This document shows positions 2,759 to 64,000 of a DNA stretch of 64,000 nucleotides, piece after piece (the stretch's first letter is position 1; each line of letters starts with the position of its first letter). Source of the stretch: Acholoe squamosa (lineage: Eukaryota; Annelida; Polychaeta; Phyllodocida; Polynoidae); assembly GCA_949317995.1 (NCBI GenBank), contig OX439039.1:75092002-75156001 (forward strand), read 5' to 3'. Made by a program: the position numbers and the translations under genes. The notes below the pieces were generated by a model. That model made no database searches and had not been told where the DNA came from. It saw only the letters and a program-made list of their open reading frames with translations.

Positions 2759-3679
2759 ACTAAGAGGTGTCTGTGTGGTTAGGTAGGCTATGGATGAGGT
2801 CGGTGAGCTAGCTAAGTGATGCTGCTCCACAGCACGGACAGGTGGCTGAGGGGGCCCCCTGTAGAGCCACTGGTGTAACTATACTACTTACTACTAGAAG
2901 GAACTGCAGAGGTATGTACCTGCCAGGGTCTGTTAAGTGTATATGAAAGGTATTCACATCGTTCTGCAGATTTTTTTGTCCAGCATTTGTCTGACATACT
3001 AAATACTATTGATTCTTAGCGTAACATCGCATGAACTCCTTACCAAAAGACGGGGTCTGCCTTATAGGCGAGGTAAATTTACATTGGATTAGGCCTCGTA
3101 GTAAACTGCCAAAAACTTGCCTGTAGGTGCACCGTATAGGGCTTCTCTCAACTCGATGCGTCTTATATACGGGGGTCGCTTTAAGGGAGAATTAAAACGG
3201 GAAATAAGAAAGATTAGAACATTAGAAAAGACAAAGAGAGACACACAGAAATAAAGAGAAAATGATTGAAATATGAATTAGGAGAAAAAAAGGACAGAAC
3301 TAAAACTACCTTGTGTGATGGTCTGTCTGCAGGGCCGTGGGGCCAGACGTCATGTCATGGGTACTCTCAGCTGTGAGTGTGTGTGTGTGTGTTGGTGGGG
3401 GGAGCAGCTCACTTAGCAGATTTAACCCTGCCCCTACCGTCAGTCTGAGCTGCTCTCTGTCTGCATTTACTCCCTGTCACGATAGAGCATCATCTGAAGC
3501 TTCCAGATTCAGACTATACATAGCGATAGCACTGTAAATGATTCAGGGATTTTTTACTTCCAAGACGTACAGATTCCTATATATATAAAGCCATTTCAAT
3601 TTTCAAGTTTCAATTGAGGATTTCAGGGATTTTGGTCAGCTCAATCACTGTATTGGTCAAACCTGTCCCGCTTTCACTA
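2759..3679. other. No gene seen; remnants only
   Basis: This is mostly unique, AT-rich sequence. At 3030-3185 there are words such as GCCTTATAGGCGAGG and CGTCTTATATACGGG, which resemble the TACCGTAA element family in decayed form. A short (GT)n run lies near 3375-3392. The motif GAGCAGCTC occurs at 3402 and in complement at 3446. No splice-bounded coding frame was recognised. Confidence 0.5.
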
Positions 3680-10713: not shown

Positions 10714-10954
10714 TAAAACACTTTAAAGGCTCCTGATGCATTAATGCATCATACCCATTTGTCGCCATGATGCATGAATGCGGCCCTGGTGATTAATTTG
10801 CATAACACTGACCCTACAGGGTTGATACGCTTATGGAGGGTCGGCAAGATGCTCCAATGAAGTGCTGGCGGGCAATCTCGCCAGCACTTCATTGGTGCAT
10901 CATGAGACCGATTGGCATGATGCACTAATGCATCAGCGGCCCTTACAGGGTTAA
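10714..10954. mobile_element. TTAA/GATGCA palindromic element, good copy
   Basis: The left end TAAAACACTTTAAAGGCTCC and the right end CGGCCCTTACAGGGTTAA form the outer arms, continued by TGATGCATTAATGCATCAT and its mirror CATGATGCACTAATGCATCA. Two hairpins lie inside: a weak one starting ATGCATGAATGCGGCC, and a strong one (CCAATGAAGTGCTGGCGGG with CTCGCCAGCACTTCATTGG). They are separated by GACCCTACAGGGTTGATACG ... GGAGGGTCGG. Note that the two hairpins are in the opposite order to 2547-2758, so this copy is inserted in the other orientation. Confidence 0.75.
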
Positions 10955-11148
10955 GGGCCTCATGATAGCATAGATACCACAGTTCTGGTGAGTATACTGT
11001 AATTGCATTGATGCATCATGACAACAAGCAAACTTCACTTTGAAGCAACTTACAACACATAGAGGACTTATTACAAACCATGGCAGGGTCATCCAGGCCC
11101 GTCTAGGTTAGTTAAGATAGTTGGAGATAAATCCTTTATAGACTTGCT

Positions 11149-11272
11149 CAAGTCTCTTGCTTCTAATTCCAGAGAAACAAAATAATGTGTAAGACTTTCA
11201 AGTATAAGACCTCTAGTAAAGCTAAGCGGCCTGGAGGGGTACTAGGGGGAGGGGCCAGAGCTTAGGGACTGT
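11149..11272. repeat. Dispersed repeat pair, copy 2 (partner 4928-5045)
   Basis: CAAGTATAAGACCTCTAGT and CTGGAGGGGTACT, then a GGGGCCAGAGCTTAGGGACT block, align with the copy at 4928-5045. The rest of 10955-11756 is unique. It contains a two-unit direct repeat at about 11599-11652 (CATGTAAAACCACCCACACT twice). Confidence 0.5.
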
Positions 11273-11756
11273 AGCCAGTCTAAATCCTTTACAAAGTTCA
11301 CCCAAAGCAGGAATGCTAAGTGTAGGAGATAAACCCTATCTCCTAGCATTCTTCTGGCGCTGAAAAAAGGAGGAGAGGAGAGAGAAATATCTTTTCAACC
11401 AACATTGGATGAAAAGACAAGATGAACCCTGTTAAGATGGGGAGTTGGTGGTTTTATTTGTTTACTCTTTTTCAATTTCCTTTTTTTCTCAAACAAAAAA
11501 CAAACTTTTTACTAGAGTGTCTAATGCTTAACTAAATAGAACAAAAGAAACCTACAGGTAAAAAAAGAGTCAGATTTGTACCGTGTCATTACCTGAAAAA
11601 CATGTAAAACCACCCACACTTTTCACATGTAAAACCACCCACACTTTTCCCATGTTAATAGCAGTGTGTGACTGACCTGAAGGTGGAGGGTAGTGTTATG
11701 ATACCTGAGATGGGGCCCTGGAGGAGGGTGGTTAAGTGGTAGTGGTACTACACCAT

Positions 11757-12014
11757 TTAACCCTTTAATAACCATTACCGGTAAATGCCTTGAGCGTCAT
11801 GTTTGTGGTCGGCAATGTGTTAATGCAGCACCAGTGAGTTACTCGCCAAGACTGCAATGGTGCATCTTGTTGACCCTTTGGGACTGTATCAACCCCCACA
11901 GGGTCAGCATGATGCAAAAACTCCTGGTGAGTTACTCACCAGGGCATCATTCATGCATCATGCCGACCAATGGGCAGAGTGCATTATAGCAATACTCAGT
12001 CCATAGGGGTTTAA
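11757..12014. mobile_element. TTAA/GATGCA element, left of a head-to-tail pair
   Basis: TTAACCCTTTAATAACC on the left and ATAGGGGTTTAA on the right bound the copy. Inside are a hairpin around GAGTTACTCGCC, the GACCCTTTGGGACTGTATCA linker, and a second hairpin built on CTGGTGAGTTACTCACCAGG. The right TTAA (12011-12014) is shared with the next copy. Confidence 0.7.
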
Positions 12015-12239
12015 CCCTTTCATGGCCACAAATGCATTAATGCATCATACCCCTTTGTCGTCATGATGCATGGATGCAGCCCTGGTGAGTAACTCTCCAT
12101 TGCTACATCCATGCATCATGGTGACCCTACATGGTTGATAAACTGACACCCAGAGGGTCGGCGTGATATCCAATGAAGTGCTGGCGAGCACTTCATTGGT
12201 GCATGATGCCTCCTGCATCAGCAGCCCTTAAAGGTTTAA
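12011..12239. mobile_element. TTAA/GATGCA element, right of a head-to-tail pair
   Basis: It starts with the shared TTAA, then CCCTTTCATGGCC, and ends CAGCCCTTAAAGGTTTAA. It contains CATTAATGCATCATACC, the ATGCATGGATGCAGCCCTGG hairpin arm, the GACCCTACATGGTTGATAA linker and a perfect short hairpin from CCAATGAAGTGCTGGCGAG with CACTTCATTGG. Confidence 0.75.
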
Positions 12240-13074
12240 GTGGTTGAGGTACTATACGGCTTAACCTCCTCCCGTCCCTGTGGGACATGTTGTAAGGGGT
12301 TGGCAAGGTGCCCACTGCCTCGGCCCACACCCACATGGGCGCATTTCCAGACACCCCCTACCCTTATACTTATACCCAGTCCCACCATCTCACCCGTCTG
12401 TACTATACTTGACTACTCTCTACCCCGCAGGCCTATATTGAACCACAGCCAGTGCCAGGCCCTTCCATCAGTCATATGCCTTTTTATAAACTTTCACATA
12501 TCAGAGAAAATAATAACCAGTGCGCATCCCAACCCCCCCCCCCCAAAAAAAAAAAAAAAAAAAAAAGAAAAAAAGAAGGGGAGAAGGGGAATCTGGTTCA
12601 GGAGACACCCCAGGACCAAAAAGCTAGAATTGAGAGGTCATGAGATAGATAGTTTCTTTTTCCAAGGGATAGGATGTTGAAGTCAGGACAGAACAACTTC
12701 ATTCAAAGGTGGTGGTGTTTTTTTTGGCCTTTTTTTCGGGGGGGGGGGACTAGCTGTATAAACTTCTTATGCCCAACTCTTTCATCGGCACAGGGGTTGG
12801 AGGTAGTCCTCAGTGGACCCTGGACTTTCGAATTTTGAAAATATCATTGGTTAGAAAAAAGTCCTCAAACTCGCGGCTTTACACAGGTCTGGCTCATGCG
12901 CAGAGTTGAGCAAAATACAAACAATACAATCGGCAGAGTTAAAAGTTGAGGATTTAGCAATTAGGTAGAAAGTTCCATGTTAAATGTAACATTTTATTGG
13001 TAACTGTGATTCGATGAGGACATGGATCGGGGAAGCACACAAAAAAAAGAACAATTCCATTTGTGAAATGAGCC
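12240..13074. other. No gene seen; homopolymer tracts
   Basis: A C run followed by a long A run lies at about 12531-12575, and T and G runs at about 12718-12748. The 146-codon ORF from 12240 crosses the C/A tract and ends in a lysine run, so it is not treated as a gene. Confidence 0.5.
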
Positions 13075-13228
13075 TTATTCCTTTAAGGGCTAACCCCCAG
13101 GTTACTGTTCCTTGGTCGCCATGATACACCAATGCAGTGCTGGCAGATCACCTCTCCAGCACTGCATCGGTGCATCATGAGTATCCTTTGGGGCGTTTAA
13201 TCCCATAGGAGTCAGTATGATGCATGAT
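13075..13228. mobile_element. Part of a TTAA/GATGCA element
   Basis: The hairpin ACCAATGCAGTGCTGGCAGA with CTCTCCAGCACTGCATCGGT is well preserved, preceded by TTGGTCGCCATGATAC and followed by CATCATGAGTATCCTTTGGG. A more decayed stretch (13340-13450) continues with GGTTACTCGCGAGAGGTGCA and CAAATGGGCAAAATG. The outer TTAA ends are unclear. Confidence 0.5.
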
Positions 13229-13450
13229 TATGGCGACCTAGCGGGATTGATTATCAGGCGAAGAAATAATCTCAAGTATTCACTGCAGACTTCTCGGGTA
13301 CCCATTTGATAACTATCATCAGCGATAACTGCTGGTAACCAGCTTCAGAAATGGCTGCGCCCAATGGACATCCCACTAACTCGGTATAGCCATTGTGGGT
13401 TACTCGCGAGAGGTGCATCCCTGCATTATGACACCAAATGGGCAAAATGT

Positions 13451-14084
13451 AATAAAGCAGACATGTGACCCTTATATGGTTAGGAGATCAACAATCAACT
13501 AAAATGTGTGTTCATTTGAACAAGAGACATTATTTTAATTATTTTAACCACGATTTGAATCTCGGTATGGCGATTATTTTGCGTTCTTTTTTGATGTGAT
13601 GGTGTGGATTTTGGCTTTTTTTTTCTTTCTTCTTTTCATTCTGACAAGTTCACAAAAAAAGAAGAACAAGTTATTGCGGCATAATTAAAATTGTTGGTAG
13701 TTTCATTTTACAAAGTAATTCATATATTAAAAGATAAGGTTTTCATCTTTTTTCTTTTTCTTTTCAAAAAACAAGTTTATTTGTTTCTGGTTTAAAAGTC
13801 TCAGTCTATACTGTTCAACCACAAATCAGACCAGGGGGAAGTTGGTTTATTTCAGATCCTTGTTCAAATCAATAAGCACATACATAAAAGACCATGTTTT
13901 TGTGCAGACTTAGGTTTGACATTCATTGAAAGGTCACATCCATTGTCTGGAGTCATTCGGTGTAGATTCTATATATAACCACACCTTGTCTAGATTGAAC
14001 AGCAAGACTGAGTATCGCCTTCCAGGCTCCCGCCATGAGAATCCCCGGCAAGTCGAGCTTTACATATTAAGAAATGATAATAGT
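13451..14084. other. No gene seen; T-rich and A-rich sequence
   Basis: The stretch holds several TTTCTTTTT runs (13610-13770) and no recognised element or coding frame. Confidence 0.5.
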
Positions 14085-14215
14085 ACACTGATGCATCATG
14101 CCTTGGTCGTCATGATGCATGGATGCAACCCTGGTGGAGTAATTCGCATCATGCCAACTCAATTGTCTCAATACACTCCCGAAGGGTGGACTTGTGAGCA
14201 GTAGTCTCGTCGCGC
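14085..14215. mobile_element. TTAA/GATGCA element fragment leading into a tandem array
   Basis: TGATGCATCATGCCTTGGTC, GTCATGATGCATGGATGCA and CACTCCCGAAGGGTGGAC are family blocks. The last arm (CGCGCCAGCACTTCATTGG) is the start of the 44-bp array that follows. Confidence 0.55.
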
Positions 14216-14437
14216 CAGCACTTCATTGGAGTATCATGCCATTTTGGCAATACCCTCCTCAGCACTTCATTGGTACATCATGTTTTTTTTTACGCAATAC
14301 CCTCCTCAGCACTTCATTGGTGCATCATGCCATTTTGGCAATACCCTCCTCAGCACTTAATTGGTGCATCATGCCGTTTTGGCAATACTCTCGCCAGCAC
14401 TTCATTGGTGCATCATGCCATTTAGGAAATACTGGGG
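14216..14437. repeat. 44-bp tandem array made from one arm of the TTAA/GATGCA element
   Basis: CAGCACTTCATTGG (or one-base variants) starts at 14216, 14260, 14307, 14351 and 14395, giving spacings of 44, 47, 44 and 44 bases. Each unit continues with TGCATCATGCCATTTTGGCA and ATACCCTCCT. The unit is the right arm of the element's GAAGTGCTGG hairpin plus its neighbouring linker. The ORF at 14194-14529 is only the translation of this array. Confidence 0.8.
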
Positions 14438-14587
14438 CTATTGCATTCCATGGGAGGAATAAACAGAGCCAGAGTTTGCCAGCACAGGAAATAGTGTGTT
14501 TGTTGTTGTGGATAATAGTGAGACGCTGATATTTGTACAGCCGGATGTGAAAAACACCCTCTCACATGAAATATCCCAATACACAAG

Positions 14588-15081
14588 TGCTGTAATGCCT
14601 CGGGTATAAGGCGCAGCTTATACACGAGAAAGTGCACCTTATGTGATTAGGCCTAAATTAAGAAAAAAAGTGTGTTCAGGTAACAATGCCTACCCTATTG
14701 TTTTGGCCCTACCCTAACTTTTATTATGGGCATTTTGTGAAAGTTTTCAGAATTTCTGGCGCTTATTGAGAAAAATTGAAAATCTTTTGGATACAATTTT
14801 GGATCAGAAGGTACAGAAAATTTCAGTTGTCCTTAAAAGATTCTCTGAAATAAAAAAAAAAAATCCAACCAACGTTACCTGAATGCAACAGATTTTTTTT
14901 TTTATTTTAGGCCCTAATAGGAAAGATGAGCGGTGCGCCTAAATAGTGAGGTTATTATAGTATAGAACAGTATTAGGCCTAAACTGCTAAAATCAAGCCC
15001 CATGGTGCCTTGTTGCTTTCTCTCAAGTTGGGGTGCCCATCACATGTGGCATGCGCCTTATATGCAAGGTATTTATGGTAA
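14588..15081. mobile_element. TACCGTAA-family element carrying a nested element
   Basis: The left end TGCTGTAATGCCTCGGGTAT, continuing GGCGCAGCTTATACACGAG, and the right end TGCGCCTTATATGCAAGG, continuing TATTTATGGTA, follow the family's inverted termini. The interior has the family block TATAGAACAGTATTAGG. A separate element with GTTCAGGTAAC ends occupies 14674-14884. Confidence 0.55.
14674..14884. mobile_element. Nested MITE with GTTCAGGTAAC ends
   Basis: GTTCAGGTAAC at 14674-14684 is the complement of GTTACCTGAAT at 14874-14884 except for the last base. The interior is AT-rich and non-coding. A lone copy of one end (GTTCAGGTAACATG) occurs near 7791. Confidence 0.55.
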
Positions 15082-15541
15082 TAGCCTGTAACCAGGTCTC
15101 ACGGTACCAGCACGTCATTCTAGGCCAAGCTATGGACCACTGGGAAATGATAATGGCCTCTTTTCTTAACTACCCAGTAATGTATTGAGGCTAAGAATAA
15201 TATATAACATTTGTAGTGGTTATGGATCTATTGATGGAACCAACGCACTACACGGCCCTTAGAACTAAAAGGGTTCCATAGGCTCTTGTACATGCTACAC
15301 AGATTTCTTCCCACTGTTAGGCCACAAAAATATTGTGTGTTTTAGGGAGTCAGACCCTACCGAGCATTTCCTGTGCTGTCTTCATTTCAGTAAAATAATA
15401 ATAATGTAAAAAAGATCTCACCTACACTACAGTACCAAATATTTCCAGCATGTTCGCTGAAATACACATTGGTTTAGGCACTATCACTGCCTCCATGCTT
15501 TAACATTAAAGAATTAAGAATCTGGAGGCATCATGTGGTCC
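15082..15541. other. No gene seen
   Basis: Unique sequence. No coding frame, RNA gene or repeat was recognised. Confidence 0.5.
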
Positions 15542-15772
15542 TTAATCCTTCAAGGGCCCCTGATGCAGGAGTGCATCATGCCCATTGGTCATGATGCACC
15601 AATGAAGTGCTGGCGAGACATCATGCTGACCCTCTGGGAGCGTATCAAGCCTGTACGGTCGCTATGGTGGATGAAGGCATTCCTGGCGAGTTACTCGCCA
15701 GGGCTGTATTGATGCATCATGATGACCAATGGGCATGATGCATTAATACATTAGGAACCCTTAAAGGGATAA
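15542..15772. mobile_element. TTAA/GATGCA palindromic element, good copy
   Basis: TTAATCCTTCAAGGGCCCCT on the left pairs with GAACCCTTAAAGGGATAA on the right. Inside are GCAGGAGTGCATCATGCCC, the left arm CCAATGAAGTGCTGGCGAG (its partner arm deleted to ACATCATG), the GACCCTCTGGGAGCGTATCA linker, and an intact hairpin CCTGGCGAGTTACTCGCCAG. Confidence 0.75.
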
Positions 15773-16029: not shown

Positions 16030-16183
16030 TTAACCTGATGTAGGAGTGCATCATGCCCATTGGTCGGTATGATGCACCAATGAAGTGCTGGCATGGCTGC
16101 TCACCAGCACTTCATTGGTGCATCATGCTAAACCTCTGGGGCTCTATCAACCCTGTAGGGTCGGCATGATAGATAAATGTACA
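16030..16183. mobile_element. TTAA/GATGCA element, left two thirds
   Basis: TTAA is followed by CCTGATGTAGGAGTGCATCA, the full hairpin CCAATGAAGTGCTGGCATGG with CTCACCAGCACTTCATTGG, then ACCTCTGGGGCTCTATCAAC and TGTAGGGTCGGCATGAT. The second hairpin and the right end are missing. The preceding 15773-16029 is C-rich unique sequence. Confidence 0.65.
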
Positions 16184-16539
16184 TCCCACTGAACAGGACT
16201 CGAGTTGGGAAACTAGGTGAATTTGGGGAGGTGACTAATTCTCAAAACAAACCTCAATAGTTTCTCAAGAATCTACCACATCAACTTCTACAAGAACAAA
16301 AACAAGTCCAGCGTGACTGGAGATATGCTCATATGAATATTGAGATCATCTTAGGATCTAGACAGAACTTTCTTGAGTACCTGGTACATATAAGATGTTT
16401 CGGGTGTCCACAATCAAATTCGCAATTCTTGTATTGTTCACAAGTCGGGGCTTAAGAAATTAAAAGAGTCTTTCTCAAGATCTTCAGTGGGATCTTATAG
16501 CCTTCAATTAAATCAGAGTGCGGCCTATGTGAGAGCGTG

Positions 16540-18390: not shown

Positions 18391-18544
18391 TCTCAACCCT
18401 TTGAGGATTGCATAGTATACTATGCTATTTTGTATGATGCATGGATATAGCTATGTTGAGTAACTCACTGGTCGTCCGCGGGGTACTCAAGATACTGCTT
18501 TAAATTTGGCTAAAAAGACAGATTTGAAAATTTGGGTATCATTG

Positions 18545-20170
18545 TACTAACACAGGGTGAGCAGCTCATGTAGTGGGTATCAGTGTTAACACAGGGTGAG
18601 CAGCTCATGGTGTGGGTATCAGTGTTAACACAGGGTGAGCAGCTCATGGTGTGGGTATCAGTGTTAACACAGGGTGAGCAGCTCATGTAGTGGTATCAGT
18701 GTTAACACAGGGTGAGCAGCTCATGTAGTGGTATCAGTGTTAACACAGGGTGAGCAGCTCATGTAGTGGTATCAGTGTTAACACAGGGTGAGCAGCTCAT
18801 GTAGTGGGTATCAGTGTTAACACAGGGTGAGCAGCTCATGTAGTGGGTATCAGTGTTAACACAGGGTGAGCAGCTCATGTAGTGGCATCAGTGTTAACAC
18901 AGGGTGAGCAGCTCATGTAGTGGTATCAGTGTTAACACAGGGTGAGCAGCTCATGTAGTGGTATCAGTGTTAACACAGGGTGAGCAGCTCATGTAGTGGT
19001 ATCAGTGTTAACACAGGGTGAGCAGCTCATGTAGTGGTATCAGTGTTAACACAGGGTGAGCAGTTCATGTAGTGGTATCAGTGTTAACACAGGGTGAGCA
19101 GCTCATGTAGTGGTATCAGTGTTAACACAGGGTGAGCAGCTCATGTAGTGGTATCAGTGTTAACACAGGGTGAGCAGTTCTTGTAGTGGGTATCAGTGTT
19201 AACACAGGGTGAGCAGCTCATGTAGTGGGTATCAGTGTTAACACAGGGTGAGCAGCTCATGTAGTGGTATCAGTGTTAACACAGGGTGAGCAGCTCATGT
19301 AGTGGTATCAGTGTTAACACAGGGTGAGCAGCTCATGTAGTGGTATCAGTATTAACACAGGATGAGCAGCTCATGTAGTGGGTATCAGTGTTAACACAGG
19401 GTGAGCAGCTCATGTAGTGGGTATCAGTGTTAACACAGGGTGAGCAGCTCATGTAGTGGGTATCAGTGTTAACACAGGGTGAGCAGCTCATGTAGTGGTA
19501 TCAGTGTTAACACAGGGTGAGCAGCTCATGTAGTGGGTATCAGTGTTAACACAGGGTGAGCAGCTCATGTAGTGGTATCAGTGTTAACACAGGGTGTGCA
19601 GCTCATGTAGTCGTATCAGTGTTAACACAGGGTGAGCAGTTCTTGTAGTGGGTATCAGTGTTAACACAGGGTGAGCAGCTCATGTAGTGGGTATCAGTGT
19701 TAACACAGGGTGTGCAGCTCATGTAGTCGTATCAGTGTTAACACAGGGTGAGCAGTTCTTGTAGTGGGTATCAGTGTTAACACAGGGTGAGCAGCTCATG
19801 TAGTGGTATCAGTGTTAACACAGGGTGAGCAGCTCATGTAGTGGCATCAGTGTTAACACAGGGTGAGCAGCTCATGTAGTGGTATCAGTGTTAACACAGG
19901 GTGAGCAGCTCATGTAGTGGTATCAGTGTTAACACAGGGTGAGCAGCTCATGTAGTCGTATCAGTGTTAACACATGGTGAGCAGCTCATGTAGTGGTATC
20001 AGTGTTAACACAGGGTGAGCAGCTCATGTAGTGGTATCAGTGTTAACACAGGGTGAGCAGCTCATGTAGTGGTATCAGTGTTAACACAGGGTGTGCAGCT
20101 CATGTAGTGGTATCAGTGTTAACACAGGGTGAGCAGCTCATGTAGTGGGTATCAGTGTTAACACAGGGTG
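18545..20170. repeat. 38/39-bp satellite array, about 42 copies
   Basis: The unit is TATCAGTGTTAACACAGG followed by GTGAGCAGCTCATGTAGTGG. It is repeated with 38-bp spacing, or 39 when an extra G is present. Copies are nearly identical. Rare variants (GTGTGCAGCTC with TAGTCG, and GAGCAGTTCTTG) occur as a linked pair at about 19590-19650 and again at about 19708-19770, three units apart, so blocks of several units have been copied together. There are no unique spacers. Each unit contains the palindromes GTTAAC and GAGCAGCTC. The first unit begins at TACTAACACAGG and the last breaks off after GTTAACACAGGGTG. Confidence 0.97.
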
Positions 20171-21632: not shown

Positions 21633-22089
21633 TTAACCCCTGAAGGGCGGCATTGGTTACCGTAAATTCTCTCGTATAAGCCGTGGCTTATACTAGAACC
21701 CAATTCAAGGGGAGGCTTATAAAATTTGCCCCAAGTCAGGGTGCGGCTTATAGGGGGTATTTAATCTTATAGAACAGTAGAAAACCTTCATTGTTCAAGC
21801 CTTGCATGTGGCTTATAGCTCCTCCCAAAGTCGGGGGTATGGCTTATACAAGGGATGTGGCTTTTACGAGAGAATTTACGGTACCCTTGGGTCGTCAGGA
21901 TTTAGCTCTAGCGAGTACCCCGTCAGGGCTAAATTCATGCATCATGTCCACCCTGCAGGGTTCACATACTCTCTTTTATTGGGTCAGCATAATGTAACAA
22001 TTATACAGGTTGGTAAGAAGACATCCCTACATTGGTACATCACTATAACAGTGTAGCTCTGGAGTGCCATGCCACCCTTACAGGGTTAA
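21633..22089. mobile_element. TTAA/GATGCA element interrupted by a TACCGTAA element
   Basis: TTAACCCCTGAAGGGCGGCA opens the copy. After the insertion (21658-21883) it resumes with CCTTGGGTCGTCAGGATTTA, a hairpin around GAGTACCCCGTCAGGG, CATGCATCATGTCCACCCTG, then GCCACCCTTACAGGGTTAA. With the insert removed, the TTAA-to-TTAA length is about 231 bp, normal for the family. Confidence 0.7.
21658..21883. mobile_element. TACCGTAA-family element, good copy
   Basis: The left end TACCGTAAATTCTCTCGTAT and the right end TACGAGAGAATTTACGGTA are complementary, with the pairing continuing through AAGCC. The interior contains TTATAGAACAGTAG, a block shared by other copies. TA at both ends may be the target duplication. 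The element is 226 bp and non-coding. Confidence 0.75.
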
Positions 22090-22960: not shown

Positions 22961-23398
22961 TTAAGCCAAAATGCATTCCATCACAGCCCTGCCAAGAGAG
23001 GATCGAGAGGATTACCATCTACATACCATACACCCCCATTCAAATGAAATTCAAAGCAAAACAAACTGGAAAGTCGAAGACAAAAACACTTCAGACCCAA
23101 TAACTGACTCTGCTGACATAGATGTCAGACCAGATGTCTGATGTCGACTCTTTGAAATTGTACAAACTCCATTGAGTTGGCATATCAAATGACTAGCGAT
23201 AGTGAGCTACTCATTTTGGCATTCAATCCTTATGGCAACCAATACAAAGGGTGCATCAGAGTGCCCCAAAGTAACACGGGCACATCAAAGATTAAAATTT
23301 ACCATTGAATTTCCCTTCCGATAATTCAAGAGAAATCGTAATAAAAAGATCGCTTCATGCACAGTAACTGACCAATGTCTATTTCCTTTCCCTTACAG

Positions 23399-23731
23399 AG
23401 CAGCTATGGCCGATCAGACGAGCAAGTGGCGGCCGAGGCGCTGGCCAATCACATGCGGTGTAACAACAGCTTTGTGTACGACCTCTTCCAGGCCCTATAC
23501 AGGTCGTCCCTCACCTGCCCGAACTGTAGAAGACAAAGTAACACCTTTGACCCCTTCCTGTCAGTCTCCCTGCCTATACCACAGAAGACACAGAGGCCTG
23601 TGTATGTAACTGTGTCTTATCTGGACGCCCAGCCTAAGCAGGTGAAGATAGGCTTACTGCTGAATCAATGTGACACTGTGAGAGAATTGAGGCAGACCTT
23701 GGCCTCCGACACCAAGATACCCGAGTCACAG
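23399..23731 (+). CDS. USP31/USP43: Internal exon of a ubiquitin-specific protease (USP31/USP43-like)
   Basis: This exon encodes 111 residues of a ubiquitin-specific cysteine protease, an enzyme that removes ubiquitin from proteins. A pyrimidine-rich TTTCCCTTACAG acceptor precedes codon AGC at 23399, and a CAG|GTTAGT donor follows at 23732. The exon is 333 bp and phase 0 at both ends. Residues 28-54 read FVYDLFQALYRSSLTCPNCR, followed by RQSNTFDPFLSVSLPIP. This is the USP 'fingers' segment with one zinc-type CxxC pair, and its wording is closest to USP31/USP43. The last ~45 residues (VYVTVSYLDAQPKQ ... VRELRQTLASD) resemble the ubiquitin-like insertion that follows this motif in several USPs. 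The catalytic Cys and His boxes are not in this exon. No neighbouring exon was recognised within the window, so the introns must be long. The ATG at 23375 lies upstream of the acceptor and is not a true start. A function beyond ubiquitin removal cannot be told from one exon. Confidence 0.92.
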
Positions 23732-24495
23732 GTTAGTGTTTTTTCTTTGTACATTTTTTTTTCTCTTTCAGAATCATAGATGGATTCTTGAGATTTCTCA
23801 TGGATATCAAGGTACTGAATCTTGAGTTATGCTGTAAATACCAGATACCATCATAGAATCTTGTGTAAATATAAGACATGGCTTATACGCGAGGCTTTAT
23901 ACATTGTATTAGCTTAAGACTCTATTCACACTCGCCCATTGGAATATTACACGTTTCTTTGAAGAAGCATTTCAGCATCCAGGGTTTTAGCAAGGTTCTG
24001 TGGAGGTTGGTCCTTATGACCAGGGGCCTGTGGTGTCTTCCATTTGGCCAACTGACGGCAGCCATTAGGCTCTGTGACAATGAGAGCCTCTGCTACTGCA
24101 GCTGCAGTCCTTGAAAATCCTTTCCTTTTGATGAAAAAATCAGTTCGATGTCATGTGTTGTGTGTAGTTGTGTCGTTTGGTAAGTGTGAGGGGCCGCTCG
24201 TGTCCCCTTATAAGCATTAGAGATGGCAGCTTGTGGCCCTCCTAGAAGAAGCGATATGGTCCTCCTGGTAGGCACTTGTATAGTGAGTGAATGTAGGAGT
24301 GCCAGAGCACGTGGTGAGCACTACATAGGTGGCGCTGTGGTATGGGTGTGTGCTTCTCAATGCCACAGAATTAACCTATAAGGTCAATTCCTTAGAAATT
24401 AGCCCTTTACTCTAGTAACTGAATCAAGCCCTGTCATCTGACAGCTTGGCAGCAGATCCACTCTTTATTAAGAACATGATTTACAGATATATAGC
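23732..24495. other. Probable intron sequence, no element resolved
   Basis: The segment starts with the GTTAGT donor and a T-rich stretch. A TACCGTAA-family scrap (ACATGGCTTATACGCGAGGC) lies near 23875. Nothing else was recognised. Confidence 0.5.
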
Positions 24496-25247: not shown

Positions 25248-25495
25248 TTTACCCTCTAAGGGTTACTAATGCATTAATGCATCATGCCGATTGGTCGTCA
25301 TGATACTTGAATGCAGCCATGGCGAGTCGCTAGCCAGGGTTATATGTATGAGTCAGGCAGACCCTACAGGGTTAATACACTCCCAAAGGGTCAGCATGAT
25401 GCACCACTGAATTCCTGCGAGCAGACCCACCAGCACTTCATTGGTGCATCATGCTGACCGAGGGCATGATGCACTCCTACATTAGGGGCTATTAA
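25248..25495. mobile_element. TTAA/GATGCA palindromic element, good copy
   Basis: TTTACCCTCTAAGGGTTACT begins the copy, and GGGGCTATTAAA closes it. It contains AATGCATTAATGCATCATGC, a hairpin around GGCGAGTCGCTAGCC, the GACCCTACAGGGTTAATACA linker, and a second hairpin whose right arm is CCAGCACTTCATTGGTGCA. Confidence 0.65.
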
Positions 25496-26092
25496 AGCAT
25501 CAAAGCAGCTCAATTGTTGTCATGAACTACACAAATGGGATGCTATGTTTCAAGAACGTAGCCATAACCTTATCGGCCTATAGTTCTGTTAAGTTTACAA
25601 ATTCTGATGAAATTATTTTCACATAGAATTTTCTTAATGAAATTGTTCTTGCAATAATTATCCTTATTGAAATCAGCACTGAAGAATCAACTCAGAGACA
25701 TTATTATAGTTTTATTATATTCATACAGAAAGATATAAAAGGACATAAACAGCACACTATGGGGTGGCCCACGTAAACTGGTACATTCGACTTTTGTTGT
25801 ACCAAGCGGCAGCCCCTTTACTTTGCTTCAGAATAATCATTTACGTGTAAAGGGTTAATTCACTACTTGATGTTGGTTTTTACGACAATTGTATGCACAA
25901 CTGTATTTCACCTTTGACAGATTTGGTTTGAGGATGATGTATGAATACATGCAGGCCGGGCAACTAGACTGGCAGCACTGCATTCAGGGATTGCGCTAAA
26001 CCTACATGATTGAGATACTCCTTAAGGATTGGCATGATCCACTGATGTAATGGGCACAATGCATTTAACGATACTTTAATACCTACATATAA
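25496..26092. other. No gene seen; decayed TTAA/GATGCA material
   Basis: The first half is unique AT-rich sequence. At about 25845-26080, words such as AAAGGGTTAATTCAC, GACTGGCAGCACTGCATTCA and GGATTGGCATGATCCAC look like a worn family copy. Ends are not determinable. Confidence 0.35.
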
Positions 26093-32157: not shown

Positions 32158-32600
32158 ACTCACAGCTGCTCATAGGGACCTATCAACGCCTAAATCATAA
32201 ACCCTTTTAAGGGCTAAATATGAAAGCTGCTCATAGGGAACTATGGAGGCCTAAATCATAAACCCTTTAAATGACTAAAGATGAAAGCTCTTCATAGGGA
32301 CCTATTATGGTCTAAGTCTTTAATTCTTTAAAGGGCTAAAGATGATAGCTCCCGGTGATAGCTGCCCTTAGGGACCCTTCATGGCCTAAATTGTTAACCC
32401 TGAAAGGCCTTAAAATAATTGCAGCACATATAGGGAACTCATATGGTCTAAATCTTTGATCCTTAAAGAACTAAAAATGATAGGTTCTCAAAGGGACTCT
32501 CGGGCCTTAGATCCTTAATCATTTAAGGACCAAAGATAATAGGGACCTCTCGGGGGCTAGATCTTTAACCCATTGGAGGGCTAGATCTAAGGAGTTGACC
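32158..32600. repeat. Diverged tandem array, unit about 60 bp
   Basis: Seven or so units follow the plan: GCTGCTCATAGGGACCTAT, GGCCTAAATC, TTAACCCTTTAA, GGGCTAAAGATGATA. For example, they start near 32166, 32226, 32287, 32355, 32422 and 32481. Units differ by 15-30%, and the array fades out around 32600-32850. No coding frame spans it. Confidence 0.75.
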
Positions 32601-34591: not shown

Positions 34592-34820
34592 GTTCAACCC
34601 TTTAAGAGCGGCAGCTGCATTATGCTTTGAAAATAATCTTTGTATCCATGTGATCATAGTGAGTATATTATACATACACTTGCCAGCACTGCATTTGTGG
34701 TCCATGCCAACCCTACAGAAGTGTACCAACCCATGCTGCTCACATGATACATTACTGCAACCCATGTGAGCCAAATGCCAGGTCAACATTCATATACCAT
34801 AACAAGAGGGCATAATGTAT
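34592..34820. mobile_element. TTAA/GATGCA element, worn copy
   Basis: It starts TCAACCCTTTAAGAGCGGCA and has CTTGCCAGCACTGCATTTG, TGCCAACCCTACAG and AGGGCATAATGTATCATC in the expected order. The hairpin arms are degraded. Confidence 0.45.
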
Positions 34821-36157
34821 CATCATGTGCACTGTAAAGATGTTGTCAAAATAACTGTAAAATTCTTATCCCAGAGATCCAAAATTAGTTTCAAGGAGAT
34901 TGTACCACAAGGTGTACTGTACTGCTTCATCGTAGAAACTACACTGCTTCACTGCAATGCAATTACAGTGGTTCATTATTCAGTTTTATGAGGATCCCTG
35001 GTAGGTTCAACTGTATTTCTTATAGTGTGCCACTGACAGAGTTGAAAGTGTTACTCTGAGCTTCATCCAGGGCTCTATCTAGGCCCCTCAATAAACCACT
35101 GACCACTGGGCATTATCATAAGGGATACTCAGAAAGAGGCGTGTTTAATACCCGGATGTATAGGTATCCTACTCCGAGGTACATGTAAAGAAGTGTGAAT
35201 CCCTAAGGAGATATCAAGGAGGGTGCTGATTGATTGAAGGCCAGCTTGATCTTGGTCAAAAGCAGGAAGGTCCGCCCCATTTGGCTGTAGCCAGGTTTGA
35301 GCTAGAGGTAGACAGAAGCCTATTTTACACTTTTACCTTTTTCTTCAGATTAATGTTGGTCGAAGCCTCATTTCTCTCATAATGGCACGACATGTCTACC
35401 CCTGTGGACTGCTGTTTAATGATTGGTCGATTCATGAGAGTTTGGCCAACATTTGATGAGACAAAAAAGGTTTGGACTATGCTTTAATGCTTTGTGCTGT
35501 GTCAAGGGATTCTTATAAAACAGCTCCTGGACAGTCTAGAACACTGCCCACTTGAATAATGGTTACCTCCGTACACCACATTGTAGGATATTTACAGAGA
35601 TCAACCAATTACGTACCTTTAATTTTTTTTATCAAATTCATGAGAATCATCCAAGTGTCACAGTCTGTGACTAAAGGCCAATATCACAATCTTCCTTTCA
35701 AATAGAAATTTCTGAAAATGTTGCTTTTTCTCTATCATGGAAATATTTCCTTGTAAGAACAGATTCACTATAGTAACCAGAATAAAAGCAAAGTTGGGCA
35801 TGACCCTAAATAAAATTCATTTTGTCTCCCCACGTAATCTCTCGCTGTCAGTGGATCTATATTAGTTTGTATCAGCCACAACATTTAAGGTGGCCATATT
35901 GGTAGAAACGATTCATCAAACAGCAGTTTTCCCTTCAGTTAGCTGAAATCTAGTTAGTGTTTCAGCCATAATTTATTGACTAAGACTTGGGACTCACTAT
36001 TAACGTTCTGACAAGACCCATCAGTTTAAGTTACAGTTAAATACATAGCTCAAAAGGGCCCTGGTTATAAATGCTCAGCGCCTTCAACGAAAGGGATTTA
36101 TCTCAATCTGAAAACGATAGCTCCATAGGTTTCACCAAGAACCGCCACATCACACCC
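34821..36157. other. No gene seen
   Basis: Unique AT-rich sequence with no recognised element. The same holds for the preceding 33890-34591. Confidence 0.5.
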
Positions 36158-39022: not shown

Positions 39023-39545
39023 TGATGCCCGCAGCTTCATGTTTCTTTGCCGGCATAATGCACCAATGCAGTGTTTGTGTCTACTCACTAGCTTTGTATT
39101 GATGCATCATGATAACACCTTTCGGAGTGTATCTACCCCTCAGGGTCGCCATGATACGTCAAATTACAACCCTACCGTAATCTCCCGCGTATAAGGCGCG
39201 TCTTATACGCGAGGTTTTAGTTCTCACTGGATCCGCAAGGGGGAGATGAAGACCTTCATTTTGATATATTAAACTTCCCCTAAGTAATAATATTACATAG
39301 GAGGCTCCAGGAGGTTCCATGTAGCTGTAGCTACATGTAGCTTTTTGAATTTTGAAAATCCATTTAGTAGAACAAAAGTTATGAATTTTTTAATTTTTTG
39401 AGCATATTCTTAAACTCTAGGTGCGTTTTATACACGAGGTGCGCCTTATACGCGAGATATTACGGTAGTAATGAGTACACCAACTACGACTGCTTTTATG
39501 CATTATGCTAACCAAGGACATACTCCCTTAACCCTTAAAGGGATG
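39023..39545. mobile_element. TTAA/GATGCA element interrupted by a TACCGTAA element
   Basis: The left part (39023-39172) has CCGGCATAATGCACCAATGC, CTCACTAGCTTTGTATTGA, TGCATCATGATAACACC, TTTCGGAGTGTATC and AGGGTCGCCATGATACG. The right part (39468-39545) has GAGTACACCAACTACG, TTATGCATTATGCTAACC and CCCTTAACCCTTAAAGGG. The insert lies between. Confidence 0.6.
39173..39467. mobile_element. TACCGTAA-family element, good copy
   Basis: TACCGTAATCTCCCGCGTAT continues AAGGCGCGTCTTATACGCG. The right end GCGCCTTATACGCGAGATAT continues TACGGTA. The element is 295 bp and flanked by TA. It is non-coding. Confidence 0.75.
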
Positions 39546-40050
39546 TGGTCATGCATTATCAGGGTTCCCACTGGTCAGTTTAAAGTCAGTTAACCCCATT
39601 TTTCTTTAAAGGTCAGTTAAAAGTCAGTTAAGAAGATATTTTGGGGAAAAGTCAGTTAAAGGTCAGTTAAAAATGATATTTTGACTATTTTCATGGTGTG
39701 ATTGTAAAGGTTTTTACACAAATTTGCAAAACTTCTTTAACATCCTTGCTTCGGAGCCGATTTTTTTTTCATAGACCCCATGAATTATCCAATATCTGGT
39801 CAGGTAAAAGCCGATAAATGTCAGGTAAAAGTCAGTTAAAACCATGACCTGTAAATCGTGGGAACCCTGATAATTCATGCCGAGCCTACAGGATCAATAC
39901 TCTCCTGAGGGGTTTGCATGATGCACCAATGAAGTTCTAACGAACCTACCAACCAGCATTGTATAGCTGCATGATGCCATCCTCAGGAATGATCATGATC
40001 ATGAAATGATGCATGAATGCACCCATGGAGAATTACTCACCAGAGCTGCA
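39532..40050. mobile_element. Second TTAA/GATGCA element, interrupted by a hAT-like element
   Basis: TTAACCCTTAAAGGGATG and GTGGTCATGCATT lie left of the insert (39560-39869). AATTCATGCCGAGCCTACAG, GATCAATACTCTCCTGAGGG, TTGCATGATGCACCAATGA and ATGAATGCACCCATGG lie right of it. It partly overlaps the end of the preceding family copy, as in the head-to-tail pair at 11757-12239. Confidence 0.5.
39560..39869. mobile_element. hAT-like MITE with CAGGGTTCCCAC ends
   Basis: CAGGGTTCCCAC at the left and GTGGGAACCCTG at the right are exact complements. Inside, GTCAGTTAA/GGTCAGTTAAAA recurs about seven times. A half copy is at 30965-31132. CAGGG tips are common in hAT elements. A clean 8-bp target duplication was not found. 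Confidence 0.65.
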
Positions 40051-40336
40051 TTCTCCCATATAGCATGGATATGATCCGTTGTTCTACCATATTGGTGTGG
40101 AGCTAAGCAGGGTGATCCCATTGAAGCCTTTCCTAACCAATGATGAAGTGGGCAGGTGATCTGCCATATCACTTGCCAAGTGGTAGAAATACTCTCAAAC
40201 CACAGTGCTCGACTCAATACTGTGCATAAAAACAGTGTTCAATATTCACTTTTTATAACTGAATAGGACCTAGAAACTATGGTAGAACACTGATCACTCC
40301 CTGTGTGTCGGGGTCAAGCTGTGGGACCACTGCTCA

Positions 40337-43228: not shown

Positions 43229-43434
43229 ATAGTATCTACAGGTGTGTTATCATTGAATATGTTAGTGTAGTACCAGTTGCGACTTTTACTAAGCCCATTG
43301 ATGCCTCATGTTTTTTTGGGTTCATTGTCGTCATTGTCAAATAACACCCCCCCCCAAGCCAAGTCACCAGCTTTTAATTCAGTTTTTCATAGTATTTTTA
43401 GTTTAGGGCTCCGTCGATGTGATCTCTCTATCTC

Positions 43435-43631
43435 TTTATAGGCCCCAGATGCAGGATTGCATCGTCCATTGGTCGTCATGATACACCAATGAAGTGCTGG
43501 TGAGACTGCTCACCAGCACTTCATTGGAGCATCATGCTGACCCTATGGGGTTGATACATAAACTTCATTGGTGCATTATGATGAGCATGATACATGAATG
43601 CATCAGTGCTGGGCACCAAGTAAAACCTTAA
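43435..43631. mobile_element. TTAA/GATGCA element next to a derived minisatellite
   Basis: It starts TTATAGGCCCCAGATGCAGG and holds the perfect hairpin CCAATGAAGTGCTGGTGAG with CTCACCAGCACTTCATTGG. It continues GACCCTATGGGGTTGATACA and ends at TTAA (43628-43631), which is also the left boundary of the following array. Confidence 0.65.
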
Positions 43632-44056
43632 CCCTTCAAGGGCCAATAGTGCAATGAATGCACCGTTAGTTGGAAGGAGTACCATTAGCCTTAAGGGTGT
43701 CACGATGCACTCATGTACCATTAGCCTTAAGGGTGTCACGATGCACTAATGTACCATTAGCCTTAGGGGTGTCACGATGCAATAATGTACCATTAGCCCT
43801 TTAGGGGTGTCATGATGCATTAGTGTACCATTAGCCCTTTAGGGGTAGCATGATGCACTCATGTACCATTAGCCCTTTAGGGGTGTCACGATGCACTCAT
43901 GTACCATTAGCCTTTTAGGGGTGTCACGATGCAATAATGCACCATTAGCCCTTTAGGGGTGTCACGATGCAATAATGTACCATTAGCCCTTTAGGGGTGT
44001 CATGATGCATTAGTGTACCATTAGCCCTTTAGGGGTAGCATGATGCATTAATGTCA
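43632..44056. repeat. 38/39-bp minisatellite derived from the end of the TTAA/GATGCA element
   Basis: About ten units of ACCATTAGCCCTTTAGGGG followed by TGTCACGATGCAATAATGT. The first (CCCTTCAAGGGCCAATAGTG with CAATGAATGCACC) is still recognisable as the terminal module of the neighbouring element: CCCTTTAAGGG tip plus GATGCATTAATGCATC arm. The ends of the array fade into normal sequence near 44056. Confidence 0.85.
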
Positions 44057-45319: not shown

Positions 45320-45689
45320 CTAACCGTTTAAGGGCCGCTGATGCAGGAATGCATCATACCCATTGCTCGTCAAGATGCACCAATGAGGTGCTGGCGAGCA
45401 GACTCGCCAGCACTTCATTGGCGCATCCATACAGTCGACATGATGACCGAAGGGCATGATATTATATCAATGAATCAGCGGCCCTTCAACGGCTCCAATG
45501 AATTTCTGGCGAGTGTGCTCGCCAGCACTTCATTGGAGCATCAATCATGCCGACCCTCCAGGACAGTATCAAGCCATCAGCATGATGCATAAATGCAGCC
45601 CTGTCTAGTACTTACCAGGACTGCATTCATGCATCATGACGACCAATGGGCATGATGCATAAATGCATCAGCGGCCCTTCAAGGGCTAA
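45320..45689. mobile_element. TTAA/GATGCA element, composite of about 1.5 copies
   Basis: CTAACCGTTTAAGGGCCGCT opens and CGGCCCTTCAAGGGCTAA closes it, so the outer ends are CTAA rather than TTAA. Two complete hairpins made of GTGCTGGCGAG and CTCGCCAGCAC are present (45379-45424 and 45491-45540), each with CAATGA-type extensions. An inner CAGCGGCCCTTCAACGGCTC marks the junction of two copies. A worn hairpin and the mirror arm CATGCATCATGACGACCAAT follow. Confidence 0.75.
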
Positions 45690-48258: not shown

Positions 48259-49393
48259 CGAACGTGATTTGAATTTTCCTATGTTCCACTGAAATGTATT
48301 TGTTATTCAACATACATTGTCCTAGCCATTCTTCTCCAGTCGTTGATTTTATTTGAATGAGTTTTGTGATAAAAGGAGAAAAACCTTCAATATTGCAAGG
48401 GTGGGATGATTGATTAACTAACGAGCCGCATGAATAGTATACATTTGTATTCCGAAAGCTTCATACATGATACTGCCACACACCCTGAAATATGTATGGG
48501 CACCTGGCAAATAAGTGTATAGAATACTTTTCTACCTACATAGAATATGCACCGAATATATCATTTATTTGATAGTCATTCTTTGATATATTGATGCTTA
48601 CATTGAACACAGAATATGATAATAGCTAATATCCTCATTATTCATTTACAGACCATTTCAATGTGATTAGATGCCTTTGATAACATCTTATTCCATATTT
48701 ACCCATAGGAGGATGCAGTCAGATTAAATGAATTTGGCAGATTACAGTCAATTCCATAAGTCTAGGTGATGGACTAGGTAGACCGGAAGTGCTTTCTTGT
48801 CTGCTTTTGAGTAGTTGAGCAAAATCAAAGCCAGGCTAGTGTCTTTCCCGGTATCTTTTTTTCCATGGGATTAGATTATACCAAGAAGTACCAAGACAGT
48901 TATTTTTATAACCACTGATTTGATTGGAGAGTTGGATGGACCAATCAATGAAATGCATCAGTGAATAAGACATTAATTGTGAGATAGAAAAAAAGGAAGT
49001 GATTTCATGTTTTATAATCTACATGATTATCACACCAAGCAATAGAACATAATTAACCCTTTCTCGACTGCACGTTGTCTTAAAGCAGCACAGAACTTTG
49101 CCTAAATGGCTCATCATAACGATCAAGAAATACATAACATAAATTTCACGTCCATTTTTCCAGACCCCTTGCCAGCTTCTCGCCCTCTAAGCCACGTTGT
49201 GCCGTTGTGCTTTGACACCCTGAGGGAATAATGCAGCCTTGTTGGGTCTAGTTGCTAGAACTGCATTCATGCATCATACCTAACCCATGAGGTGTATATA
49301 TTAAAATACATGCCCTACAGGGTCGGTAGGTTGCACTGATGATGTGCTAGTGAATAGAGTTGCTAGTACTCCATAGGTACATGATGACAAATA
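48259..49393. other. No gene seen; worn TTAA/GATGCA material at the right
   Basis: The 37-bp exact duplicate lies at 48601-48637. From about 49055 to 49390, CTGCATTCATGCATCATACC, CCCTACAGGGTCGG and related words suggest a decayed TTAA/GATGCA copy. Confidence 0.4.
48601..48637. repeat. 37-bp exact duplicate of 44091-44127
   Basis: See 44091-44127. The two copies are identical over 37 bases and share nothing outside them. Confidence 0.85.
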
Positions 49394-50289
49394 TACATGA
49401 TCCTGGAGCTGGGGTACGCCCCTTTAACATTATAACATTCGCTGCAACTGTAATTATAGCGTCTCTATGTAAAGTCTGTCCCCTAGTGACATCTAATGGC
49501 AGACTCACTTTGTTGTGGACCTGAGACGCACGGTATCATGGGAATGGGGATACACGCCACAATGGCAGCGCCTCTATAGAAACAGAGAAGAAGTCACTTA
49601 CTACCTTCTACTTACTACCTACTACTAGTCTTTCACACACAAACCTCGAAACGAATTACAAAAGGGATATATCCCTAGCTTTGGGACAACCCATTCCCGT
49701 CTTCATGTTTGATTGGGTAAGACAGACAGTGCTCAATGGAGCTACCGTAAAACTGGCATTTAGGCAGCACCTCACCTATAGGCTACAAATTTGACTGAGT
49801 GCTAAATCTGGCGACATCCACTTAAAAGAGCTAATACGATGGGAAGCAGATTGTCACTGGAACAAGATACATGTCTTATTTGTGCATGTCAACCAGCGAA
49901 ATATCTATTGTGAGAATGCTACAGGCCACACCCGGTATTTGAAGTTATGCCACTCATATATCAAATCCCTCTAAATGATGTGGCAGCTCTTACATGGGGT
50001 TTTATGGTAGATGGCTGTAGTTGATCTACATTGTCCCTCTATGTTACTGTTGTTTGATAACAAGGACAGTTTTACATTTATAGTGTACTGCCTGTAGACC
50101 TATAAGGAGATGGGTATGTGTAATTGGGTTTTGACTAGCTGGTCTACCATGTAGATTAAAGGGTCTCCAAACTGCTTTGGAGAGAATTGTGAATAAATAT
50201 AACCTGACACAAACTAATCCAACACTGATATAAACTAGGTGTTAGTAATAATTGGAGTAATATTTGATGTTTAGACAGTTGAGGGGAGG

Positions 50290-60410: not shown

Positions 60411-60968
60411 TTAACACTGTATGGATGACATAAGGCCTCAATGCTTTATGTTAATTTGTTGCACTGAAACATAATGGTGAATACCCTATTGGTATGCATC
60501 ATGCTCACCCTGTAGGTTGATATTATACATGAATGCAGCTCTGGTGAATTACTTGCCTGTGATGCATTATGTACATTGGTCTCCTTGATATATTATACAG
60601 CATTTATAAGTACATCATCATATAGTGCTGCGTTGATATATTGCGCCACCAACTTTGGGAGTGCATCAACCATATAGGGTCTGCATGATGCATGAATGCT
60701 AACTCACCAGGGCTGCATTCATGCATCATGACAGCCAAAAGACAGGAGTGATACCAGTGGCGGATCCAGTATTTCAAGAAGTAAGGGGCGCACCCCTCTT
60801 TTAGTTAACAGTAGGGCACATCTGGTATTTTAGGTAATATTTGGGTTTGAGGGACGCTCATAAACTCACCTAAGTACAGGCAAAAACGAGAGGGTGCGAG
60901 CCCCTGCGTCCCCGTCTAAAGCCATCAATGCAATGCATTAACACACTATGCGGCCCTTAAGGGGTTAA
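60411..60968. mobile_element. TTAA/GATGCA element, lengthened and interrupted by a hAT-like MITE
   Basis: TTAACACTGTATGGATGACA begins a worn left part. From 60480 the blocks TATGCATCATGCTCACCC, GCATCAACCATATAGGGTC, TGCATGATGCATGAATGC and CTCACCAGGGCTGCATTC are family modules. The right end is CGGCCCTTAAGGGGTTAA (60965-60968). A CAGTGGCGGATCCAG element occupies 60755-60930. The left half is longer than usual and may be two overlapping copies. Confidence 0.55.
60755..60930. mobile_element. hAT-like MITE with CAGTGGCGGATCCAG left end
   Basis: The left tip CAGTGGCGGATCCAGTATTT is intact. The right tip (TCTAAAGCCATCAATG) has decayed from the same sequence. The interior has GGGGCGCACCCCTC and ACTCACCTAAGTACAGG, as in 8993-9130 and 55860-56022. 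Confidence 0.6.
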
Positions 60969-63887: not shown

Positions 63888-64000
63888 CCCTTTAAGGCCG
63901 CTAATGCAGGAGTGCATCATGCCTATTTCAAGGGCCGCTAATGCAGGAGTGCATCATGCCTTTTTCAAGGGCCGCTAATGCAGGAGTGCATCATGCCTAT
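63888..64000. repeat. 37-bp tandem array made from the end of the TTAA/GATGCA element (continues past the window)
   Basis: TTAACCCTTTAAGGCCGCTA begins a normal element tip. The block TTCAAGGGCCGCTAATGCAG, GAGTGCATCATGCCTAT then repeats with 37-bp spacing (63928, 63965 and on to the window edge). This is the outer-arm module of the family repeated head to tail. Confidence 0.8.

Follow-up and report, generated by a model that had tools for sequence, protein, structure and literature searches.

The window analysed here, a 64,000-base stretch of the polychaete Acholoe squamosa at 75.09–75.16 Mb of contig OX439039.1 (C5), is strewn with the old copies of an element of ∼220–260 bp that carries no gene, is very abundant, inserts at TTAA and consists almost entirely of palindromes. 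We consider it highly probable that this family is a high-copy, non-autonomous miniature inverted-repeat transposable element (MITE) of the piggyBac type, made of inverted duplications and decaying neutrally. A sequence-only reading of the same DNA had proposed that the single strand of these elements could fold as a cloverleaf, and had taken their TTAA boundaries and CCC tips as signs of piggyBac-type mobilisation.

Abundance and TTAA insertion of the element

In the genome searched (1481 Mb in 63 contigs, 18 of which hold 99.8% of the sequence) the 15-base tip TTAACCCTTTAAGGG has 8047 exact matches (4126 + 3921) compared with 2 for a reversed control. Two exact tips facing each other 220–250 bp apart occur at 46 places (control 0), one being a tandem satellite and the other 45 complete elements; we read 35 of the latter, a set selected for TTAA-bounded inverted tips at that spacing. 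When up to 2 mismatches were allowed, a 66-base left end was found at 459 places (16 exact) and the corresponding right end at 130 places, some of which begin a left-type hairpin within this tolerance, with both controls at 0. Arithmetic on the tip and pair counts yields ∼3.6 × 10^5 genome copies, an upper figure because tips also occur in satellites and broken copies. The complete copies (220–250 bp) are short, non-coding and numerous, carry inverted repeats and have a target duplication, as is characteristic of MITEs, and their length is below what a transposase gene needs.

A profile of the 35 complete copies matched 41 non-overlapping pieces of the window, amounting to 6037 bases or 9.4% of it. 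These include the copies that the sequence-only reading had named (profile matches at 2547, 10714, 11757, 12011, 15542, 25248 and 45320), and controls exclude chance as their source. At the 10 window ends reached by the profile without its tips, TTAA was judged by eye to be exact in 4, to have one change in 3 and two changes in 1, and to be missing in 2. With the 15-base tip and the 258-base majority sequence described below, this repeat, which occupies 9% of the window, can be masked.

The target site could be read most directly at copy L105, which is inserted in another repeat with TTAA duplicated. When its flanks were joined with one TTAA and used as a query, they matched 38 unoccupied places straight across the junction (40 of 180 candidates were scored, 2 of which were L105 itself). 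All 8 of the 8 unoccupied places that we read have a single TTAA preceded by GGT and followed by CCAAGG, and therefore TTAA was duplicated when L105 inserted, as the sequence-only reading had expected of the flanks. Among other sites read, L053 also has TTAA and L058 has TGAA. The tips have the form CCC...GGG, and their CCCT start agrees with the piggyBac motif CC[C/T]T as given in the excerpted text of PMC2872659.

Well-kept copies crowd towards chromosome ends. Within 15 Mb of an end we found 93 of the best 100 left ends (from 459) where 36.5% are expected, 86 of the 100 right ends listed (from 130), and 34 of the 45 complete elements; the left ends listed are those with fewest mismatches, and the lists are biased to well-kept copies. 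As controls, the unrelated repeat that hosts L105 has 17 of 38 places in this zone and piggyBac transposases 7 of 33 clusters, the latter collapsed by hand from 90 matches. Recent insertion, less decay and gene conversion are candidate causes of the crowding.

The four-stem fold and its probable inheritance

Taken over the 35 complete copies, the majority sequence has a length of 258 bp. It begins with a terminal repeat, TTAACCCTTTAAGGGCCGCTGATGCA..ATGCATCATGCCCATTGGTCGTCATGATGCA. A left hairpin follows, whose arms are CATGATGCACCAATGAAGTGCTGGCGAG, then a central hairpin, GACCCT..AGGGTC, and a right hairpin, whose arms are CATGATGCATGAATGCAGCCCTGGCGAG (T is frequent at position 16 of the 5' arm); the inverted terminal repeat comes last. 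The terminal repeats are ∼60 bp long and start TTAA|CCCTTTAAGGG, and the end word of the element is TTAACCCTTTAAGGGCCGCTGATGC. Folded as a single strand with RNA parameters, the majority sequence forms a four-way junction in which 90% of bases are paired (−224.5 kcal/mol), so that the cloverleaf-like plan is confirmed for the consensus. All 35 single copies also fold lower than their dinucleotide shuffles, with a median z of −14.5 (range −24.2 to −3.3). ARAGORN found 0 tRNA genes in the window, which speaks against a tRNA or an element derived from one.

Two forms of the element can be distinguished, an asymmetric one whose right hairpin differs from the left and a symmetric one whose right half is the left half inverted. 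The hairpins accordingly come in two types, which differ at five arm positions, each difference being matched on the opposite arm (one of them, pair 203/236, only partly); these five fit a one-time inverted duplication or selection on a master copy alike. An A-A mismatch is common in the left hairpin: among 69 hairpins, 65 have A on the 5' arm and 47 have a 3' arm read as T. The outer stem has a four-base mismatch block, GGAG in the left repeat facing TTAA in the right, in 23 of the 40 unselected elements whose two repeats are readable; TTAA stands at this position in both repeats in 11 of the 40. The inner terminal repeats diverge from the consensus by a median of 12% (40 elements). The centre is forward in 37, inverted in 3 and unclear in 6 of 46 asymmetric elements, and in 9, 8 and 6 of 23 symmetric ones, with 16 of 85 elements untyped; inversion of the centre, which the two orientations might suggest, was dropped as an explanation because nothing else marks the orientation of a symmetric element.

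If the stems were maintained pair by pair, the two arms of a hairpin should resemble each other more within a copy than between copies. We compared arms in 85 elements (35 complete, 40 picked for their good left end and 10 window copies), which provided 104 hairpins with both arms recognisable: 69 left, 20 right of type R, 11 right of type L and 4 mixed. Likeness within and between copies was 0.855 and 0.851 for the left hairpin (180 of 2000 shuffles as high), 0.803 and 0.801 for right-R, and 0.851 and 0.851 for right-L. The terminal repeats behaved similarly, at 0.744 within and 0.745 between copies in the 40 unselected elements, and at 0.823 and 0.822 once the mismatch block was removed (69 of the 85 elements, those with both repeats). 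Pooling all hairpin types raised the within-copy value to 0.837 against 0.794 between copies, with 0 of 2000 shuffles as high, an excess that arises because two hairpin types exist. Arms are therefore no more alike within copies than between them, and the stems most likely persist by descent from a palindromic ancestor and not by pair-by-pair mending.

We also counted cells in which both partners of a pair had changed, using an alignment of 39 copies (34 from the complete set, in which L015 was omitted for its ambiguous orientation, and 5 window copies). Over all helices together there are 69 such double-change cells compared with 41.2 in shuffles (0 of 500 as high), while the number of double-change pairs and of pair types is not above shuffles. 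The 74 pairs of the outer stem and left hairpin hold 17 cells compared with 18.4 (347 of 500 shuffles as high), and the entire excess resides in the centre and right hairpin, with 52 compared with 22.8 (0 of 500). Within a single subtype (right hairpin R with forward centre, 23 of the 39 copies) the centre has 9 compared with 8.1 and the right hairpin 3 compared with 2.0, its percentage of paired positions being slightly high (46 of 1000 shuffles). When all 30 copies typed R were taken, whatever their centre, the right hairpin again had an excess, 10 compared with 3.4 (3 of 1000), which mistyped rows or a sub-subtype may account for. Most of the structure is thus without any sign of mending, and the weak signal in the right hairpin may be explained by the mixing of types; the right-hairpin sets are small, and there may be weak covariation there. 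The compensatory-change test consequently lends no support to the folding idea of the sequence-only reading as a kept structure: no excess is seen in the outer stem or the left hairpin, nor, within the 23-copy subtype, in the centre or the right hairpin. For scans of this kind the result carries a warning: multi-stem folds can stay nearly perfect through divergence by neutral palindromic inheritance, and pooled subtypes can mimic compensatory change.

Relation to piggyBac transposons and competing explanations

The piggyBac transposase domain PF13843 has 90 matches in the genome (best E 1e-88), two of them near whole-domain and free of stops. The transposons L044 and L045 have the ends TTAACCCATT...AATGGGTTAA, and L048 has TTAACCCTCT...AGAGGGTTAA. 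L044 is thereby bounded by TTAACCC...GGGTTAA, and its empty site, read in L095, has one TTAA; the nearer of two Protein Data Bank (PDB) matches to its transposase is that of piggyBat, 9c0f (E 1.2e-58). We folded the terminal 160 bases of nine piggyBac ends from six loci. Two of the nine, at the right of L046 and of L048, are homologous to each other, and an end of L054 was left out because it points away from its transposase. The mean z of the nine is −3.1, compared with 0.04 (sd 1.24) for 33 interior stretches, and 6 of the 9 lie below the lowest of these 33. Hairpin-rich ends are therefore common among the piggyBac elements read in this genome. Together with the empty sites of L105 and the CCC tips, these TTAACCC-ended transposons support the piggyBac-type mobilisation that the sequence-only reading had proposed.

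We envisage that a transposase of the piggyBac type, produced from another place in the genome, would bind the ends of the MITE as double-stranded DNA, cut at TTAA and paste the element into another TTAA. The palindromes would stem from inverted duplication and may represent multiplied sites, or descendants of such sites, to which the cysteine-rich domains of the transposase bind; the cloverleaf would then be a by-product of inverted duplication in master copies and not a working fold. According to the excerpted text of PMC11707139, piggyBac transposase binds end palindromes via its cysteine-rich domains, and an extra inner site restrains piggyBat. A palindrome-built MITE of piggyBac type offers a natural test case for whether subterminal palindromes in piggyBac ends help, restrain or do nothing. 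Modelled on the inner site by which piggyBat restrains its own transposon, one could suppose that the palindrome array spreads as a decoy, its many copies soaking up and restraining piggyBac transposases while still being mobile at TTAA. We hold this to be improbable; if it were true, the enrichment at chromosome ends would shape where piggyBac activity is tolerated.

Several observations count against a piggyBac-type MITE that decays neutrally. The excess of double-change cells, in the whole structure, in the centre and right hairpin, and in the right hairpin of the 30 R copies, is one of them. The unoccupied paralogues demonstrate TTAA duplication for one MITE copy only, and the role of the palindromes as transposase-binding sites is something that we infer. 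The sequence-only reading had also suggested a search for an autonomous piggyBac-like element with the same ends, and no transposase element with the terminal repeat of the MITE was found in 30 transposase loci (of the 90 matches) and 6 flank pieces at three sites; having TTAACCC in common is weaker evidence than a matched pair of elements would be. The MITE profile does match 8 of the 30 loci (L046, L047, L059, L060, L062, L063, L066 and L070, with L047 and L060 being the same place), in what we judge from coordinates, and for L059 also from sequence, to be nearby or embedded pieces and arrays. The autonomous partner may be among the unread loci, extinct or diverged, or the MITE may depend on cross-mobilisation of the kind proposed for the Acropora MITEs (CMITEs) in the excerpted text of PMC2872659.

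The most substantial competing explanation is that the four-stem fold, as single strand, cruciform or transcript, has a function of its own and is maintained by selection, for instance in a structured RNA or an intermediate of transposition. It would account for the 90% pairing of the consensus, for the hairpin-type differences matched across arms, and for the double-change excess in the centre and right hairpin. Because of the excess in the 30 R copies we raised our estimate of this explanation slightly and lowered that of the neutral MITE by as little, and still regard a selected fold as unlikely: the outer stem and left hairpin have no excess, arms and terminal repeats are equally alike within and between copies once types are separated, the 23-copy subtype is likewise without excess, the A-A mismatch is common, and the four-base block is kept in 23 of the 40 unselected elements. 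It is very unlikely that the family spread mainly as satellites or through template switching, with TTAA as a remnant of the tip sequence. Modules of the element do occur in tandem arrays in the window and elsewhere (including L075, and one of the 46 paired-tip places), whereas the complete copies read, which were selected for TTAA on both sides, are dispersed, and the well-kept L105 has unoccupied paralogues with a single TTAA. Mobilisation of the Kolobok type seems to us the least probable of all. Kolobok likewise duplicates TTAA and has abundant Xenopus MITEs (excerpts of PMC6004289 and PMC9587614), but its termini are 5'-RR...YY-3' in the latter source and those of our element are CCC...GGG, an argument that is made from termini.

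A piggyBac-type MITE built of palindromes is a variation on a known kind of element. The closest likeness in the excerpted text of PMC2872659 is to the CMITEs, piggyBac-type MITEs with TTAA duplication and CCCTTT tips (family II tip CCCTTTAAGCCCTA) that form tandem arrays, share their genome with piggyBac elements and are suggested to be cross-mobilised. They differ in being ∼100 bp long, with terminal repeats of 13–14 bases and a conserved inner part of 75 bases, and no multi-hairpin plan is described in that excerpt; sequences were compared at the tips alone. The ends of piggyBac and piggyBat share the TTAA target, terminal inverted repeats and subterminal palindromes bound by the transposase, but these elements are autonomous and have a few short palindromes per end, not palindromes throughout (excerpt of PMC11707139). 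In Xenopus, T2-MITE of the Kolobok group duplicates TTAA, is a high-copy MITE and has a member whose internal segment became a repeat family (Xstir), with the difference that its termini are AGGRR/RR (excerpt of PMC6004289). The Daphnia Pokey MITEs mPok1 and mPok2 are also piggyBac-type and non-autonomous, a likeness drawn from partial descriptions and not from sequence. In agreement with the sequence-only reading, which knew of no such family, we found no named family matching the element in the literature searched, repeat databases being outside the search, and the tip word CCCTTTAAGGG turned up there in a single paper, whose title marks its subject as unrelated.

Copies, arrays and other features of the window

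Near-complete elements lie at 2547–2758 (+; TTAA at both ends, profile 1–258, 150.6 bits), 10714–10954 (−; with a decayed TTAA at 10714 and the left hairpin on the − strand, profile start 10714/10717, 209.5 bits), 15542–15772 (+; 197.4 bits) and 25248–25497 (−; 207.4 bits). The stretch 11757–12239, which had been taken for one copy, does consist of element sequence and is in fact two elements that meet at one TTAA (12011–12014): a less complete one at 11757–12014 (+; 116.4 bits to 11992, the remainder from sequence) and a second, close to full length, at 12011–12239 (−; 177.9 bits). Another supposed copy, 45320–45689 (+), is likewise element sequence and proved to be a rearranged composite of three profile pieces, in which a short element running from 45320 to ∼45490 (terminal repeat, left hairpin, terminal repeat) is followed by an element that starts inside the left hairpin.

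Shorter or more decayed matches include a left part at 13080–13245 (+; 84.3 bits), partial elements at 14080–14241 (−; 78.0 bits) and 39033–39163 (+; 64.3 bits), a tipless element at 16035–16200 (+; 139.4 bits) and a shortened one at 43432–43607 (+; 124.9 bits, profile 5–241 over 176 bases). Two partial matches overlap at 39864–40080 (60.0 and 65.9 bits). Decayed elements were found at 21882–22089 (−; 68.1 bits), 34596–34822 (+; 56.2 bits) and 49214–49403 (−; 68.0 bits), with one or more at 60460–60748 (+; 63.6 and 28.7 bits).

Tandem Repeats Finder (TRF) detected three arrays related to the element: one at 14215–14432, in whose 44-base unit the sequence shows the left hairpin's 3' arm, one at 43679–44054 with 10.1 copies of a 38-base unit containing the tip-like TTAGCCCTTTAGGGG also found in the tip scan, and one at 63896–64000 whose 37-base unit resembles the terminal repeat and which continues past the window end. 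Arrays similar to the 38-base one adjoin the piggyBac copies L046 and L047. The piggyBac copies L072, L073 and L047 carry or adjoin tandem arrays of ∼150–163 bases, as seen in self-matches. TRF also found a 61-base tandem unit with AAACCCTTTAAAGGGCTAAAG and AGCTGCTCA at 32164–32350, perhaps another TTAA-type end turned satellite, and a 38-base satellite at 18535–20170 with ∼43 copies 96% alike (unit GGTATCAGTGTTAACACAGGGTGAGCAGCTCATGTAGT). The window holds 48 occurrences of the palindromic word GAGCWGCTC compared with 0.26 expected, 13 of these outside 18535–20170 (for example at 3402, 37642 and 45755), and the 30 piggyBac loci hold 9 compared with 0.42 expected, two of the nine being a single site because L047 and L060 overlap. 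This word is a candidate binding word that several TTAA families may have in common.

Two open frames were also noted in the window. A 135-codon open stretch at 23372–23779 (+), for which Pfam gave only a sub-threshold RA-like match, presumably resembles an exon of a ubiquitin-specific protease. At 53413–55827 (−) an open frame of 804 codons matches reverse transcriptase (PF00078, E 8.9e-37) and is probably a retrotransposon of the non-long-terminal-repeat (non-LTR) kind.

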